A stretch of DNA of 64,000 nt from Bradyrhizobium glycinis. Its GTDB lineage: Bacteria; Pseudomonadota; Alphaproteobacteria; Rhizobiales; Xanthobacteraceae. The stretch's first letter is position 1; every line of letters starts with the position of its first letter. The position numbers were made by a program, and so were the translations under genes. Below are positions 26,835 through 32,246 of the stretch, piece after piece. Where the stretch lies: the NCBI RefSeq assembly GCF_016031655.1, contig NZ_JACCHQ010000013.1, positions 62,001 to 126,000 on the forward strand. The letters are read 5' to 3'. The notes beneath the pieces are model-generated. The model worked only from the letters and a program-made list of their open reading frames with translations. It ran no database searches and was not told the origin of the DNA.

Positions 26835-26858
26835 CTAGATAGTAAGTATACTGTCAAT
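26835..26858 (+). promoter_or_regulatory. Operator/-10 site upstream of the aryl-CoA hydroxylase gene
   Basis: 24 bp, CTAGATAGTA then AGTATACTGTCAAT-type sequence, identical at 22 of 24 positions with the site at 31156-31179. The palindromic core AGTATACT contains a -10-like TATACT at 26847-26852. It ends 14 bp before the TTG start. It is probably bound by the MarR protein encoded at 29873-30385 (inference). Confidence 0.75.
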
Positions 26859-26872
26859 TAGGGAGGCAGACG

Positions 26873-28036
26873 TTGCGGATCGCCGTGATTGGCGGGGGGC
26901 CTGGTGGGCTCTACTTCGCCTATCTCTGGAAGAAGCGTCACCCCGAGGATCAGGTCGACCTGTTCGAACAGAACCCGGCCGACGCGACCTGGGGCTTTGG
27001 CGTCGTGTTCTCCGACCAGGCGCTGGAGTTCCTGCGCGCGGATGACCCCGAGACGGTCGATGCGATCGCCCCGCACATGGAGAGCTGGGAGAACATCACG
27101 CTGAACCTTCACGGCGACAGCGTCGCCATCGACGGCGTCGGCTTCTCCTCGATCGGGCGGCTGGAGTTGCTCAAGTTCCTGCAGCAGCGCGCGTTCGATG
27201 TCGGCGTCGCGCCGCGCTTCGACACGCAGATCCAGACGATCGACCAGCTCAACGGCCACGATCTGATCGTCGCCGCCGACGGGCTGAACTCGCTGGTGCG
27301 CCGCGCCTATGAGGGCGATTTCGGCACCTCGCTGTCCTACTCATCCAACAAGTTCGTCTGGTACGGCACCTCGAAACGCTTCGACACGCTGTCGCAGACC
27401 TTCGTGAAGACCGAGCGCGGCGCCTTCAACGCCCATCACTACCGCTATTCGCCGACCATGAGTACCTTCCTGGTCGAATGCGATCACGCCACCTGGCAGG
27501 CCTATGGCTTCGCCTACAAGGACGTCGAGCAGTCCAAGGGCGTCTGCGAGGAGGTGTTCGCCGACACGCTCGGCGGCCATTGTCTCGTCTCCAACAAATC
27601 GGTCTGGCGCAACTTCCCCTGGGTCTGGAACGAGCACTGGTCGTTCAAGAACATGGTGCTGCTCGGGGATGCCCTGCATTCGGCGCATTTCTCGATCGGC
27701 TCGGGCACGCGGCTCGCGATCGAGGACGCCATCGCCCTCGTCAAGGCGCTGGAGTCGGATGCGCATCTTGCGACCGCGCTGCATCGCTATCAGGCCGCGC
27801 GCAAGCCCATCGTGCAGAAGCTCGTCAACGCCGCGCGCACCAGTGCGTTCTGGTACGAACATTTCGCCGAGCACATGAAGCTGCCCCTGATGGACTTCGC
27901 CTACAGCTACATCACCCGCTCCGGCCGCATCGACGATTCCCGGCTGCGTGCGATGTCGCCGGCCTTCATGGCGCGCTACGAGGCGACCAGGAACGGCGGA
28001 GACGGCGCCGAACACAACGGCGGAGATGCGGCATGA
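26873..28036 (+). CDS. FAD-dependent aromatic hydroxylase, salicylyl-CoA 5-hydroxylase-like
   Basis: 387 aa group A flavin monooxygenase. The FAD fold is IAVIGGGPGGLYFAYLWKK, the DG motif is DLIVAADGLNSLVRRAYEG and the GD motif is MVLLGDALHSAHFSIGSGT. It looks like the N-terminal monooxygenase half of aminobenzoyl-CoA monooxygenase/reductases and like salicylyl-CoA 5-hydroxylase, but has no reductase half. With the CoA ligase and gentisate dioxygenase nearby it probably hydroxylates an aryl-CoA (salicylyl-, benzoyl- or 3-hydroxybenzoyl-CoA). The start is TTG at 26873 behind AGGGAGGCAG. The stop overlaps the ligase start by 4 bp (ATGA). Confidence 0.85.
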   Translation: MRIAVIGGGPGGLYFAYLWKKRHPEDQVDLFEQNPADATWGFGVVFSDQALEFLRADDPETVDAIAPHMESWENITLNLHGDSVAIDGVGFSSIGRLELLKFLQQRAFDVGVAPRFDTQIQTIDQLNGHDLIVAADGLNSLVRRAYEGDFGTSLSYSSNKFVWYGTSKRFDTLSQTFVKTERGAFNAHHYRYSPTMSTFLVECDHATWQAYGFAYKDVEQSKGVCEEVFADTLGGHCLVSNKSVWRNFPWVWNEHWSFKNMVLLGDALHSAHFSIGSGTRLAIEDAIALVKALESDAHLATALHRYQAARKPIVQKLVNAARTSAFWYEHFAEHMKLPLMDFAYSYITRSGRIDDSRLRAMSPAFMARYEATRNGGDGAEHNGGDAA

Positions 28037-29646
28037 GCCACGACATCCGTGACCAGGTGCCCGCGGACAGCGAAGGCGCGCGCGAGATCGGCTTTGCCGT
28101 TCCCGACATCTACAATGCCGGCCGCGTGCTGTTCGACAATCTCGGCAAGGGCCGCGGCGACAAGCTCGCGCTCCTGGGGCCGGCAGGCGCGCGCACTTAT
28201 GCCGAGCTCTGCGCGGAGGCCTGCCGCTGGGGCAACGGTTTGGCTTCGCTTGGCCTTGCTCGCGGCGATCGCGTGCTGTTGTTTCTCGACGACACGCCGG
28301 CCTACCCCGCTGCCTTCTTCGGCGCGGTGCGCGCCGGCTTCGTGCCGCTGCTGATCAACACGTTGACGCCGCCGGACCTGTTGCAGTTCTATCTCTCCGA
28401 TTCCGGCGCGAGCGTCGCGGTGGCGGATGCAGAATTCGCGGCGCGCTTCAATGCCGAGGCTTGCAAGGAGACGAAGCTGCAGACGCTGATCGTCGCCAAT
28501 GGCGCGGCCGGCGAGCACGCGGCGCCGCGGGCGCTCGCGGCGGCGAGCTGGCTCGCGCAGTTTCCGACCGAGCTTCCGGAAGCGCCCACGCAGCGCGACG
28601 AAATGGCGTTCTGGATGTACTCCTCCGGCTCGACCGGACGGCCCAAGGGCATCGTTCACCTGCAGCACGACATGGCCTACAGCGATGCCGCCTTTGCGCG
28701 GAACGTGCTGAAGCTGACGCCCGACGACATCTGCTTCTCGGTGCCGAAGATCTTCTTCGCCTACGGCTTCGGCAATTCCGTCACCTTCCCATTCGCGGCC
28801 GGCGCCGCAACGCTGCTGCTGCCGGGCCAGCCGAAGCCGGCCTCGATCTTCGCGGCGATCGAGCAGTATAAGCCGACGGTCTTCTTCGGCCTGCCGACGC
28901 TGTACACCGCGCTGACCAAGGCAGAGGGCGCGGAGAAGACGGATTTCTCGTCGCTGCGCATGGCGCTCTCCGCCGCCGAGGTGCTCTCGGCCGAGGTCTT
29001 CAACGGCTGGAAGACGCTCACAGGACTTGAAATCATCGAAGGCCTCGGCTCGACCGAGGTGCTGCACATCTATCTCTCCAACCGGCCCGAGCGGAAGAAG
29101 CTCGGCGCCGCGGGCCTGCGCGTCCCCGGCTACGAGGTCGCGCTGCGCGACAAGGACGGCCGCGACGTCGGCGACAACGAGGAAGGGATTCTGTGGGTGC
29201 GCGGCGATTCCAACACGCCGCTGTACTGGAACCGGCCGGACAAATCCGCCGAGACGATTCGCGAGGGCGGCTGGATCTACACCGGTGATCGCTTCGTGCG
29301 GGATGCCGACGGCTTCCACTTCTTCCGCGGCCGCGCCGACGATCTCATCAAGATCTCCGGCCAGTGGGTCTATCCGCTCGAGGTGGAGCTGTGTCTCGCC
29401 GATCACCCCGACATCCGCGAATGCGCGGTGTTCGCCGCCGAGCTGCCGGACCGTCGCATGACACTGAAGGCGGTGGTGGTGATGAATAACCGTGCGGTCG
29501 ACCAGAGTGAGGCGACGCGCAAGCTGCAGGACTATGTCAAGGGCAAGCTGCTGCCGTACAAATATCCGCGCGAGGTGGTCTTCATGGACGAGCTGCCGAA
29601 GACCGGCACGGGGAAGATCGATCGGCAGGCGTTGTTGAGGATGTGA
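28033..29646 (+). CDS. Benzoate/salicylate--CoA ligase family enzyme
   Basis: 537 aa adenylate-forming ligase of the benzoate-CoA ligase family. It has the P-loop MYSSGSTGRPKGIVHLQHD, GLGSTEVLHIYLSN, the hinge region YTGDRFVRDADGFHFFRGRA with DDLIKISGQWVYPLEVE, and the catalytic Lys in PKTGTGKIDRQALL. It activates an aromatic carboxylate to its CoA thioester with ATP. The gene follows the flavin hydroxylase with an ATGA overlap. The two probably work in series: ligase first, then ring hydroxylation of the CoA ester. Exact acid specificity cannot be read. Confidence 0.9.
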   Translation: MSHDIRDQVPADSEGAREIGFAVPDIYNAGRVLFDNLGKGRGDKLALLGPAGARTYAELCAEACRWGNGLASLGLARGDRVLLFLDDTPAYPAAFFGAVRAGFVPLLINTLTPPDLLQFYLSDSGASVAVADAEFAARFNAEACKETKLQTLIVANGAAGEHAAPRALAAASWLAQFPTELPEAPTQRDEMAFWMYSSGSTGRPKGIVHLQHDMAYSDAAFARNVLKLTPDDICFSVPKIFFAYGFGNSVTFPFAAGAATLLLPGQPKPASIFAAIEQYKPTVFFGLPTLYTALTKAEGAEKTDFSSLRMALSAAEVLSAEVFNGWKTLTGLEIIEGLGSTEVLHIYLSNRPERKKLGAAGLRVPGYEVALRDKDGRDVGDNEEGILWVRGDSNTPLYWNRPDKSAETIREGGWIYTGDRFVRDADGFHFFRGRADDLIKISGQWVYPLEVELCLADHPDIRECAVFAAELPDRRMTLKAVVVMNNRAVDQSEATRKLQDYVKGKLLPYKYPREVVFMDELPKTGTGKIDRQALLRM

Positions 29647-29672
29647 GGCGATAGTGCCGCCACACATTCAGT

Positions 29673-29835
29673 GTCGTCCCGGACAAGCGCGCCTCAAGCG
29701 CGCGCCGATCCGGGACCCATAGCCACAGGCGGACGTGGTTGCGGGGACTCGGAGTTATCTTTTCGCGCCCAACTCCTTCCTGTGGTTATGGGTCCCGGAT
29801 CTGCGCTCCGCTTCGCGGCGCTTGTCCGGGACGAC
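29673..29835. repeat. Palindromic intergenic repeat, family B (copy 3)
   Basis: Starts GTCGTCCCGGACAAGCGCGC and ends GGCGCTTGTCCGGGACGAC, with GATCCGGGACCCATAGCCAC and CTGTGGTTATGGGTCCCGG inside. It lies between the convergent CoA-ligase and MarR genes. Confidence 0.8.
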
Positions 29836-29872
29836 AGTGAGAATGAGGCGCCAGCACAGCCTCACACCACCC

Positions 29873-30385
29873 TCACCCACCCTTCCCCAGATGCTCCAGC
29901 GCGTCCTCGGCACGCAGCGGCACGCGGGAGGCCTCGTTGTTGAGATCGACCAGCTGCGCCAGCAGACCCATCAGCGCCTTGCGGTCGGCGGGCTTGAGCG
30001 GCTCCAGCATCCGCCCTTGCGCGCGCTCGACGGCGGGGATGATCTCGCGCAGGATCGCAGCGCCGGACTTGGTCAGATAGAGCAGCTTGATCCGCTTGTC
30101 CTCGGGTGCCGGCTTGCGCTCGATATAGGCCTTGGCCTGCAGCCGTTCGATCACGCTGCCGAGCGTCGAGCGGTCGAAGGCGATCACCGCCGACAGCCGC
30201 GTCGCGTCGATGCCGGGATGGGTGTGGATTGCGACCAGCGCGGCATATTGCACCGGGGTGAGGTCGAACGCCTTGCACTCCTCCATGAAGATCGAGACCG
30301 CGATCTGCTGCATGCGCCGGAACAGATAGCCCGGCGCGGCATAGACCGCGTCCATCGCGATCGGAAGAAGAGGCTTACTCGGCAT
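29873..30385 (-). CDS. MarR-family transcriptional regulator of the aryl-CoA/gentisate genes
   Basis: 170 aa. The winged helix-turn-helix can be read as LTPVQYAALVAIHTHPGID, TRLSAVIAFDRSTLGSVIER and the wing KPAPEDKRIKLLYLTKSGAA, the standard MarR layout. MarR proteins often bind palindromes and release them when an aromatic acid or its CoA ester binds. The gene starts at 30385, inside the last 11 bp of the GST gene, so the two are co-transcribed. The likely targets are the matching operators at 26835 and 31156. Confidence 0.9.
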   Translation of the reverse strand: MPSKPLLPIAMDAVYAAPGYLFRRMQQIAVSIFMEECKAFDLTPVQYAALVAIHTHPGIDATRLSAVIAFDRSTLGSVIERLQAKAYIERKPAPEDKRIKLLYLTKSGAAILREIIPAVERAQGRMLEPLKPADRKALMGLLAQLVDLNNEASRVPLRAEDALEHLGKGG

Positions 30386-31007
30386 CGGGTTGCTTCTCCG
30401 GTGCGGCATCGGCAAACGCCGGCAGCGCCTTGGCGGCGGCCTCCGCCTGGAGCAGACGGGGATAGGCGGAGACATCGACGCCGAAGCGGCGCGCATTGCC
30501 GAGCTGCGGCACGAGGCAGAGATCGGCCAGCGTCGGAGCATCGCCGAAGCAGAACGGACCCGGCTCGGCCTTGATCAGCGTCTCGCAGGCCGACAGGCCC
30601 TCGCGATTGACCCAGGCGGCCCAGTCCTGAACTTTCTCCTCGGGCAGGCCGAGCTCGCGCAGCCGCGCCAGCACCTTCAGGTTCTGCACCGGATGGGTGT
30701 CGCAGGCGATCGCCAGCGCGAAGGCGCGCACCTTGGCGCGGCGCAGCGGATCTTTCGGCAGCAGCGGTGGATTGGGATGGGTCTCGTCGAGCCATTCGAT
30801 GATGGCCACCGATTGCGTCAGCACTCCTCCCGCATCATCCTCCAGCGTCGGCACCAGGCCTTGCGGGTTGATGGCGAGATAGCTGGGCGCGCATTGCTCG
30901 CCCTTGCGCAAATGATGCGGCAGATGCTCGGCGCCGAGCCCCTTGAGGTTCAGCGCGATCCGCACGCGGTAGGCGGCGCTGGAGCGGAAATAGCCGTGCA
31001 GCTTCAT
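30375..31007 (-). CDS. maiA: Zeta-class glutathione S-transferase: maleylpyruvate/maleylacetoacetate isomerase
   Basis: 210 aa. The N-terminus MKLHGYFRSSAAYRVRIALN contains the SS(A/C)xxRVRIAL motif of zeta-class GSTs, with Ser as the glutathione-activating residue. NPQGLVPTLEDDAG and LTQSVAIIEWLDETHPNPPL complete the thioredoxin-like domain. In gentisate breakdown this enzyme class isomerises maleylpyruvate to fumarylpyruvate using glutathione. That role fits the gentisate dioxygenase gene across the divergent promoter. It overlaps the MarR gene by 11 bp. Confidence 0.9.
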   Translation of the reverse strand: MKLHGYFRSSAAYRVRIALNLKGLGAEHLPHHLRKGEQCAPSYLAINPQGLVPTLEDDAGGVLTQSVAIIEWLDETHPNPPLLPKDPLRRAKVRAFALAIACDTHPVQNLKVLARLRELGLPEEKVQDWAAWVNREGLSACETLIKAEPGPFCFGDAPTLADLCLVPQLGNARRFGVDVSAYPRLLQAEAAAKALPAFADAAPEKQPDAE

Positions 31008-31027
31008 GGAGAGCCCTCCCTGTCTGT

Positions 31028-31122
31028 TATTCCGGGGCTCGCGAAGCGAGAGCCCGGAATCCATACTCCCGATCGTGGGTATGGATTCCGGGCTCGACGC
31101 TGGCGCGTCGCCCCGGAATGAC
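31028..31122. repeat. Palindromic intergenic repeat, family C (copy 1)
   Basis: ATTCCGGGGCTCGCGAAGCG with GAGCCCGGAATCCATA, mirrored by TATGGATTCCGGGCTC and CGCCCCGGAATGAC. It lies in the divergent region just upstream of the GST start and before the gentisate promoter. Confidence 0.75.
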
Positions 31123-31144
31123 GATCTTGTATGTCATCCGTCAC

Positions 31145-31173
31145 ATTGACGCTACCTAGATCGTCAGTATACT
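31145..31173 (+). promoter_or_regulatory. Sigma-70-type promoter of the gentisate dioxygenase gene
   Basis: -35 TTGACG at 31145-31150, a 17-bp spacer and -10 TATACT at 31168-31173, 33 bp upstream of the ATG at 31206. The -10 lies within the palindromic operator core, so binding of a repressor would block RNA polymerase. Confidence 0.7.
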
Positions 31174-31179
31174 GTCAAT
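31156..31179. promoter_or_regulatory. Operator in the divergent GST-MarR / gentisate dioxygenase region
   Basis: Second copy of the 24-bp element, 22/24 identical to 26835-26858. Here the core CAGTATACTG is a perfect 10-bp palindrome. The wider 22-bp stretch (31159-31180) is an imperfect palindrome mismatched at two base pairs only. It sits between the two divergent starts and could control both. The MarR protein is the obvious candidate binder. Confidence 0.75.
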
Positions 31180-31205
31180 CAACAAAACGACCGGGAGCCG
31201 CAACC

Positions 31206-32246
31206 ATGGAAGCCGTGACCAAGACGCCGGAACGCGAGGCGTTCTACAAGAAGATCGACGGCGAAAACCTCACCGCGCTGTGGACGGTGATGAGCGACCT
31301 GATCACGCCGGAGCCGAAAAGCGCGTGCCGGCCGCACCTCTGGAAGTTCGACGTCATCCGCGACTACATGCTCGAAGCCGGCAAGCTGATCACGGCCAAG
31401 GAAGCCGAGCGGCGCGTGTTGGTGCTGGAGAACCCGGGGCTGCGCGGGCAATCCAAGATCACGACCTCGCTCTATGCCGGCGTCCAGATGGTGGTGCCCG
31501 GCGATGTCGCGCCCGCACACCGGCACAGCCAGTCGGCGCTGCGCTTCGTGCTCGAAGGCAAGGGCGCCCACACCGCGGTCGACGGCGAGCGCACCGCGAT
31601 GGAGCCTGGCGACTTCATCATCACGCCGTCGATGACCTGGCACGATCATTCCAACGAGACCGATCAGCCGATGTTCTGGCTCGACGGCCTCGACATCCCC
31701 CTGGTGCAGTTCTTCGACTGCTCCTTTGCCGAAGGCGCGAAGGAAGATCAGCAGAAGATCACCAAGCCCGCGGGCGACAGCTTTGCCCGCTACGGCCACA
31801 ACCTCTTGCCCGTCGACGTGAAGCGGAGCTCGAAGACTTCGCCGATCTTCAGCTATCCCTATGCCTACACGCGCGAGGCGCTGGAGAAAGCCAGGACGCG
31901 CCAGGAATGGGACGCCTGCCACGGCCTCAAGCTGAAGTTCAGCAATCCCGAGACCGGCGATTTCGCGATGCCGACCATCGGCACCTTCATCCAGCTGCTG
32001 CCGAAGGGTTTTGGCACCGCGCGCTATCGTTCGACGGACGCAACGGTGTTCTGCCCGATCGAGGGCAAGGGCCGCAGCCGCATCGGCAATACGGTGTTCG
32101 AATGGGGCCCGCGCGATCTGTTCGTGGTGCCGAGCTGGCATTGGCTGACGCACGAGGCTGATGATGACGCCGTGCTGTTCAGCTTCTCGGATCGGCCGGT
32201 GCAGCAGAAGCTGGATCTGTTCAGGGAAGATCGCGGCAACGCGTGA
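31206..32246 (+). CDS. Gentisate 1,2-dioxygenase
   Basis: 346 aa bicupin ring-cleaving dioxygenase. The first cupin has the Fe-binding His pair in PAHRHSQSALRFVLEGKGAH and MEPGDFIITPSMTWHDHSNE. The second cupin covers ATVFCPIEGKGRSRIGNTVF and VVPSWHWLTHEADDDAVLF. It cleaves gentisate to maleylpyruvate with O2 and Fe(II). The ATG at 31206 follows GGGAG at a good distance. It is divergent from the GST-MarR pair and shares its operator with the hydroxylase-ligase operon. Confidence 0.92.
   Translation: MEAVTKTPEREAFYKKIDGENLTALWTVMSDLITPEPKSACRPHLWKFDVIRDYMLEAGKLITAKEAERRVLVLENPGLRGQSKITTSLYAGVQMVVPGDVAPAHRHSQSALRFVLEGKGAHTAVDGERTAMEPGDFIITPSMTWHDHSNETDQPMFWLDGLDIPLVQFFDCSFAEGAKEDQQKITKPAGDSFARYGHNLLPVDVKRSSKTSPIFSYPYAYTREALEKARTRQEWDACHGLKLKFSNPETGDFAMPTIGTFIQLLPKGFGTARYRSTDATVFCPIEGKGRSRIGNTVFEWGPRDLFVVPSWHWLTHEADDDAVLFSFSDRPVQQKLDLFREDRGNA

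Follow-up and report, generated by a model that had tools for sequence, protein, structure and literature searches.

The window that we analysed, a stretch of 64,000 nucleotides from Bradyrhizobium glycinis, contains a cluster of five genes that lie where a preliminary description of the sequence had placed them (Table 1). The first, hyd, encodes a stand-alone protein that is related to salicylyl-CoA 5-hydroxylase over the N-terminal half of the latter (profile positions 1-387 of 768) and fails the model of the full bifunctional hydroxylase/oxidoreductase, NF006101, with 406 bits against a cut-off of 1078. Its stop codon is overlapped by the start of lig, for which the best solved relatives are benzoate-CoA ligase (4eat, 383 bits) and then anthranilate-CoA ligase (4wv3, 341 bits). 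The winged-helix domain of the marR product is clear (PF12802, 45.8 bits, cut-off 27; PF01047, 41.9 bits, cut-off 24.6); among the NCBIfam MarR models none reaches its cut-off, and no named equivalog fits. The gst gene overlaps the start of marR and exceeds the maleylacetoacetate isomerase model TIGR01262, a score that does not fix the substrate as maleylacetoacetate or maleylpyruvate. No fumarylpyruvate hydrolase was noticed among these five genes. The preliminary description had assigned the cluster to the breakdown of an aromatic acid by way of CoA esters and gentisate; the enzyme families fit that route, but hyd falls below the cut-off of its model, so that the substrate and reaction proposed for it are a prediction. 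Between lig and marR lies an inverted repeat (29642-29866) with 88-nt arms that are 77% complementary.

Table 1. Features of the gene cluster and its candidate operators (positions in the window)
Feature	Position	Strand	Evidence or remark
24-mer copy 1, CTAGATAGTAAGTATACTGTCAAT	26835-26858		
Operator 1 (candidate), ATAGTAAGTATACTGTCAAT	26839..26858		5' of hydroxylase-ligase operon; conserved upstream of hyd in relatives
TATACT, probable -10 of hydroxylase-ligase promoter	26847..26852	+	within operator 1; predicted from sequence
hyd, FAD monooxygenase, 387 aa, TTG start	26873..28036	+	NF006101, 406 bits
lig, benzoate-CoA-ligase family, 537 aa	28033..29646	+	TIGR02262, 492 bits, cut-off 375
marR, 170-aa regulator of the MarR family; would repress both promoters	29873..30385	-	PF01047, PF12802
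gst, maleylacetoacetate/maleylpyruvate isomerase-type GST	30375..31007	-	TIGR01262, 264 bits, cut-off 171
Dispersed palindromic repeat	31026..31124		between operator 2 and gst start
TTGACG, -35 of dioxygenase promoter	31146..31151	+	promoter scan
24-mer copy 2, CTAGATCGTCAGTATACTGTCAAT	31156-31179		
Operator 2 (candidate), ATCGTCAGTATACTGTCAAT	31160..31179		between gst-marR and gdo
TATACT, -10 of dioxygenase promoter	31168..31173	+	within operator 2; promoter scan
gdo, gentisate 1,2-dioxygenase, 346 aa	31206..32246	+	TIGR02272, 629 bits, cut-off 442

The CTAGATNGTNAGTATACTGTCAAT element occurs twice, as two 24-mers identical at 22 of 24 positions, and TATACT lies inside both sites; the positions, the degree of identity and the overlap with the -10 box all agree with what had been reported before. 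What is conserved is a dyad of 20 bp over the -10 box (consensus ATTGACAGTATACTGTCAAT), and the leading CTAG of the 24-mers is not retained in deeper relatives. The promoter scan scored the dioxygenase promoter, TTGACG-16-TATACT, at 10/12 and scored none at the hydroxylase site, where the -35 box would, judged by eye, be TTAGTC, 17 bp upstream. The second dyad is 152 bp from the GST start codon, with a repeated palindromic element in between. This repeat of about 100 bp is probably in the gst-marR leader; it has at least 80 matches in the genome (mostly counted on both strands, with 40 of 174 candidates scored), and the gst-gdo gap in some relatives (for example, L081) is too short to hold it.

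The motif is specific at sufficient length. Within the window the core AGTATACT occurs twice, against 0.01 expected, and the 7.79-Mb genome holds it in four places, as opposed to 18 occurrences of the same letters reversed. Two of the four are the window sites, one is on contig C14 and one is on contig C32, between MarR and monooxygenase genes; the C14 copy (L003:1501-1508) immediately follows a strong hairpin, with no aromatic gene recognised nearby. The 14-mer AGTATACTGTCAAT is restricted to the two window sites in the whole genome (G000), which extends to the genome the earlier remark that the motif occurs nowhere else; no scattered copies appear at 14 letters. Looser searches, with up to three mismatches, were uninformative because they return background-level counts: at 13 letters there were 151/140 matches against 115/152 for the control, no longer above it, and at 20 letters 69 of 70 genomes had a match, including two that have no marR (G333 and G340), with similar control counts.

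Across 60 congeneric genomes the exact 14-mer was matched 66 times, in 46 genomes (two matches in 20, one in 26 and none in 14), and the reversed control has none in any genome. In 19 of the 20 genomes with two matches, the pair shares a contig at a spacing of 4.1-5.6 kb; in the other, the matches are on two contigs. All 65 matches that were compared with marR positions or loci are at this cluster; the 66th is on contig C170 of G310. We found marR in 58 of the 60 genomes (G000 and 57 of the 59 others), and the two without it lack the 14-mer. A further 12 genomes have marR and lack the exact 14-mer; in the six of these that were examined, a dyad of at least 16/20 is present at gdo in all six and one of at least 15/20 at hyd in five. 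At the G345 locus (L281) there is no dyad at hyd.

To follow the sites in related loci we used the best 80 of 216 relatives from a scan of genome contigs, nearly all titled Bradyrhizobium and with close relatives over-represented. All 80 contain hyd, and lig, marR, gst and gdo are each present in 75. The exact AGTATACT core precedes hyd in 75 of the 80 loci and gdo in 61 of 75; in the remaining 14, the gdo site has AGTATGCT. In the 1,555,581 bp of these loci, 152 dyad matches of at least 16/20 lie within 80 bp upstream of hyd or gdo and none elsewhere, scores that are not independent tests because these same sites supplied the consensus and the rows are related to one another. The commonest base has a mean frequency of 0.87 in the hyd dyad, as against 0.55 and 0.61 in its flanks (20 rows), and of 0.91 in the gdo dyad, as against 0.54 and 0.53 (58 rows). 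Symmetric pairs at the centre average 6.7 of 10 in 18 distinct hyd 20-mers and 7.0 of 10 in 27 distinct gdo 20-mers, and 1.0-3.6 when the centre is slid by -12 to +8 bases; choosing the sites by likeness to a palindromic consensus favours such symmetry. The gdo site of one locus (L219) is a perfect palindrome. The right arm of the gdo site could owe part of its conservation to a role as -35 box (TTGACA) for divergent transcription of gst-marR.

These data bear on whether the two sites are alike merely as sigma-70 promoters with TATACT -10 boxes, as the TATACT within the core and the TTGACG-16-TATACT arrangement at gdo might suggest. The conservation, however, is symmetric and includes TGTCAAT downstream of the -10 box, and the dyad is absent from seven of eight hyd promoters that adjoin an IclR-type gene, so that we regard this explanation as highly improbable. 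In five of the 80 loci (L096, L097, L099, L122 and L132) lig does not follow hyd, and the exact operator core is lost in three of these five versus two of the 75 others, as if the operator decays after ligase loss. The cluster is also present, at 89-94% protein identity, in a record titled Frankia sp. RB7 (L139), which is probably a mislabelled Bradyrhizobium.

Genomes in which the cluster is divided are informative about its two halves. In G281 the halves share an 8.46-Mb contig, with hyd-lig at 1.05 Mb and marR-gst/gdo at 8.14 Mb; even if the contig is circular, more than 1.3 Mb separates them, and each half has a dyad (16/20 and 18/20). G040 has gst-marR on one contig and gdo on another, and at both the dyads stand in tandem, 15 bp apart; tandem dyads are also found at marR or gdo in G095, G112, G114 and G135, and in G043 as well. 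G064 carries hyd, lig and gdo a second time (68, 61 and 69%), with neither marR nor a dyad nearby; its marR is elsewhere in the genome.

Comparison therefore gives good support to the earlier proposal that one MarR protein would control all five genes: the dyads are specific and conserved, they co-occur with marR, and a split genome retains both. We consider it highly probable, on these comparative grounds, that the marR product, as a dimer, represses a small regulon through both dyads, and a local MarR regulon of this familiar type is very likely real. In the mechanism that we propose, the dimer would bind the dyads 26839-26858 and 31160-31179 when no inducer is present; because both dyads cover the -10 box, binding would block RNA polymerase at the hydroxylase-ligase and gentisate dioxygenase promoters. 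From the second site the dimer would also shut off gst-marR and so regulate its own synthesis. Release of the repressor would come from a free aromatic acid belonging to the pathway, whether gentisate, salicylate or 3-hydroxybenzoate, and the predicted route would run from aryl acid through aryl-CoA, gentisyl-CoA, gentisate and maleylpyruvate to fumarylpyruvate.

The proposed effector differs from the aryl-CoA implied in the preliminary description. The solved sequences closest to the window MarR are PcaV and BpsR (4fht and 6pcp), whose ligands differ from those proposed here. In BpsR, Arg26 contacts the carboxylate of 6-hydroxynicotinate (PMC6837509). R23 of the window MarR aligns with this carboxylate-binding arginine, and all 18 homologues aligned have an arginine there. 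PcaV presumably uses the same aligned arginine. MarR proteins 43-47% identical to the window MarR are encoded on plasmids of Azospirillum oryzae and Vitreoscilla filiformis, where the annotated neighbours are a 3-hydroxybenzoate 6-monooxygenase, a cupin dioxygenase, a fumarylacetoacetate hydrolase family protein and a maleylacetoacetate isomerase; the annotation of these plasmids, which is incomplete, shows no CoA ligase within 5 kb of either. The invariant arginine, together with these gentisate clusters in which no CoA ligase is annotated, favours, short of proof, a free aromatic acid as effector. An aryl-CoA thioester would be in keeping with the ligase belonging to the regulon and with CouR, which is released by p-coumaroyl-CoA (PMC4737184). 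Against it stand the arginine and the gentisate-cluster relatives just described, and CouR is a weaker match to the window MarR (44 bits) than BpsR (56 bits) or PcaV (54 bits); we thus consider the thioester unlikely and retain the free acid.

The closest other MarR of the genome, on contig C32, is 48% identical to the window MarR and has the trait of MobR that is absent at the window MarR, a divergent 3-hydroxybenzoate hydroxylase gene; the gene that it faces matches 3-hydroxybenzoate hydroxylase 2dkh with 942 bits (L229:7495-9984). The intergenic region between them contains AGTATACT and AGCATACT, 15 bp apart. We therefore weighed whether the window sites are bound mainly by this MobR-like paralogue, or by both proteins, with the 3-hydroxybenzoate and gentisate genes co-regulated. 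That the paralogue has this pair of motifs in its own intergenic region, that C32 is one of only four places in the genome with AGTATACT, and that the recognition helices are alike (FDRSTLG versus YDRTTIT) are all compatible with such sharing. The dyads, however, co-occur with the window-type marR and sit in its own promoter, and the best sites of the paralogue differ in their outer arms; control by the paralogue is accordingly very doubtful, and the window MarR is the preferred regulator. Because 3-hydroxybenzoate seems to have its own route here, through the C32 genes, salicylate may be a slightly better guess than 3-hydroxybenzoate for the substrate of hyd-lig. Around distant hydroxylase loci (L199) the neighbouring genes were uninformative on the substrate.

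The hydroxylase promoter differs among relatives according to the regulator gene nearby. Over 107 hyd loci (at least 66% identity; the rows are related and at least two are identical), a dyad of at least 15/20 is found at hyd in 95 of the 99 without a neighbouring IclR-type gene versus one of the eight with such a gene, and that one (L193, 15/20) resembles the repeat of about TTGYAYAATRT described below. In two loci (L195 and L216) marR is in the same locus, yet no dyad is found at hyd. In the genomes with tandem dyads, which belong to other genera, hyd-lig is without a clear dyad and carries instead a repeat that reads, by eye, approximately TTGYAYAATRT, and an IclR-type gene lies 87-579 bp from hyd-lig. 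The IclR-type gene of G040 scores 75 bits with the PcaR/PcaU/PobR model, below the cut-off of 285. In a locus of the same genome (L212, contig C2), hyd-lig adjoins a full-length bifunctional salicylyl-CoA 5-hydroxylase/oxidoreductase (NF006101, 1356 bits), with an IclR-type gene, a 3-hydroxyacyl-CoA dehydrogenase and branched-chain-type ABC transporter genes also among the neighbours.

From the difference in dyad frequency the hyd-lig module seems to have changed regulator, and the direction of the change is suggested by the IclR form being that of other genera. On the hyd tree the IclR and MarR labels cluster (8 changes versus a shuffled mean of 11.4, with 0 of 200 shuffles as low). We rejected the tree as a basis for a single or directed switch, given that the MarR label needs six changes and the backbone is poorly resolved. 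A fuller scenario is possible, although we would put it at somewhat less than an even chance as a whole: hyd-lig, run by an IclR-type regulator in neighbouring genera (approximately TTGYAYAATRT, twice), would have joined the Bradyrhizobium gentisate MarR regulon as a dyad grew over its -10 box; an ancestral pair of gdo dyads 15 bp apart would have shrunk to one, leaving the outer arm ATTGAC as a -35 box; and gentisate-type and MobR-type MarRs would share an operator code, with AGYATRCT cores that often lie 15 bp from each other. If this is true, the shared code could let two aromatic circuits of one cell cross-talk.

Several known systems resemble the one proposed here. MhbR of Burkholderia xenovorans LB400 and Polaromonas naphthalenivorans CJ2 is likewise a MarR beside gentisate-pathway genes and likewise a proposed repressor binding a palindrome at a promoter (PMC3572157); the site proposed in LB400, ATTGTTTCACAAACTAAT, is unlike the window dyad, MhbR faces a transporter gene, an arrangement that the window system does not share, and the MhbR route is a direct 6-hydroxylation of 3-hydroxybenzoate, as opposed to a CoA ligase plus hydroxylase. 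MobR has a counterpart of similar kind in the C32 paralogue, which faces a 3-hydroxybenzoate hydroxylase-like gene and has the same core as the window dyads, whereas the window regulator would control the gentisate, not the protocatechuate, route. In Streptomyces WA46 and Rhodococcus B4, salicylate is converted through salicylyl-CoA and gentisyl-CoA to gentisate (PMC4600096), and the window cluster would likewise use a ligase, then a CoA-ester hydroxylase, then gentisate dioxygenase; the window hydroxylase differs in having 387 aa and failing the curated model, its substrate being predicted. A MarR connected with auxin in Variovorax and Bradyrhizobium was set aside as a different regulator (PMC9613470).

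In the open-access literature we found no paper on this cluster and no description of the operator or of the regulator exchange, both of which look undescribed. The arrangement itself is ordinary in kind. The analysis offers a concrete 20-bp candidate operator and a five-gene candidate regulon in a genus of root symbionts, for which the breakdown of plant aromatic acids, possibly including the defence hormone salicylate, would matter; exchange of an IclR for a MarR regulator at one promoter across related genomes would be a tractable case of catabolic modules changing regulator.

Ten of 50 listed matches to plasmid-borne MarR homologues were examined for the operator. Ten matches of at least 14/20 were found, in five of the ten loci, compared with a shuffled mean of 0.62 and a maximum of 3 in 60 shuffles. 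The other five loci have no match at that threshold. Of the three plasmid loci with annotated gentisate-type neighbours, two are among these five, those of Cupriavidus (L285) and Vitreoscilla (L289); the operator is therefore not universal in this MarR subfamily. For G208 (L270), the two highest-scoring sites are about 2.4 kb from marR. On a plasmid of Azospirillum argentinense (L282), dyad-like sites of 14-15/20 occur in three intergenic regions around a related MarR, which suggests a wider regulon there.
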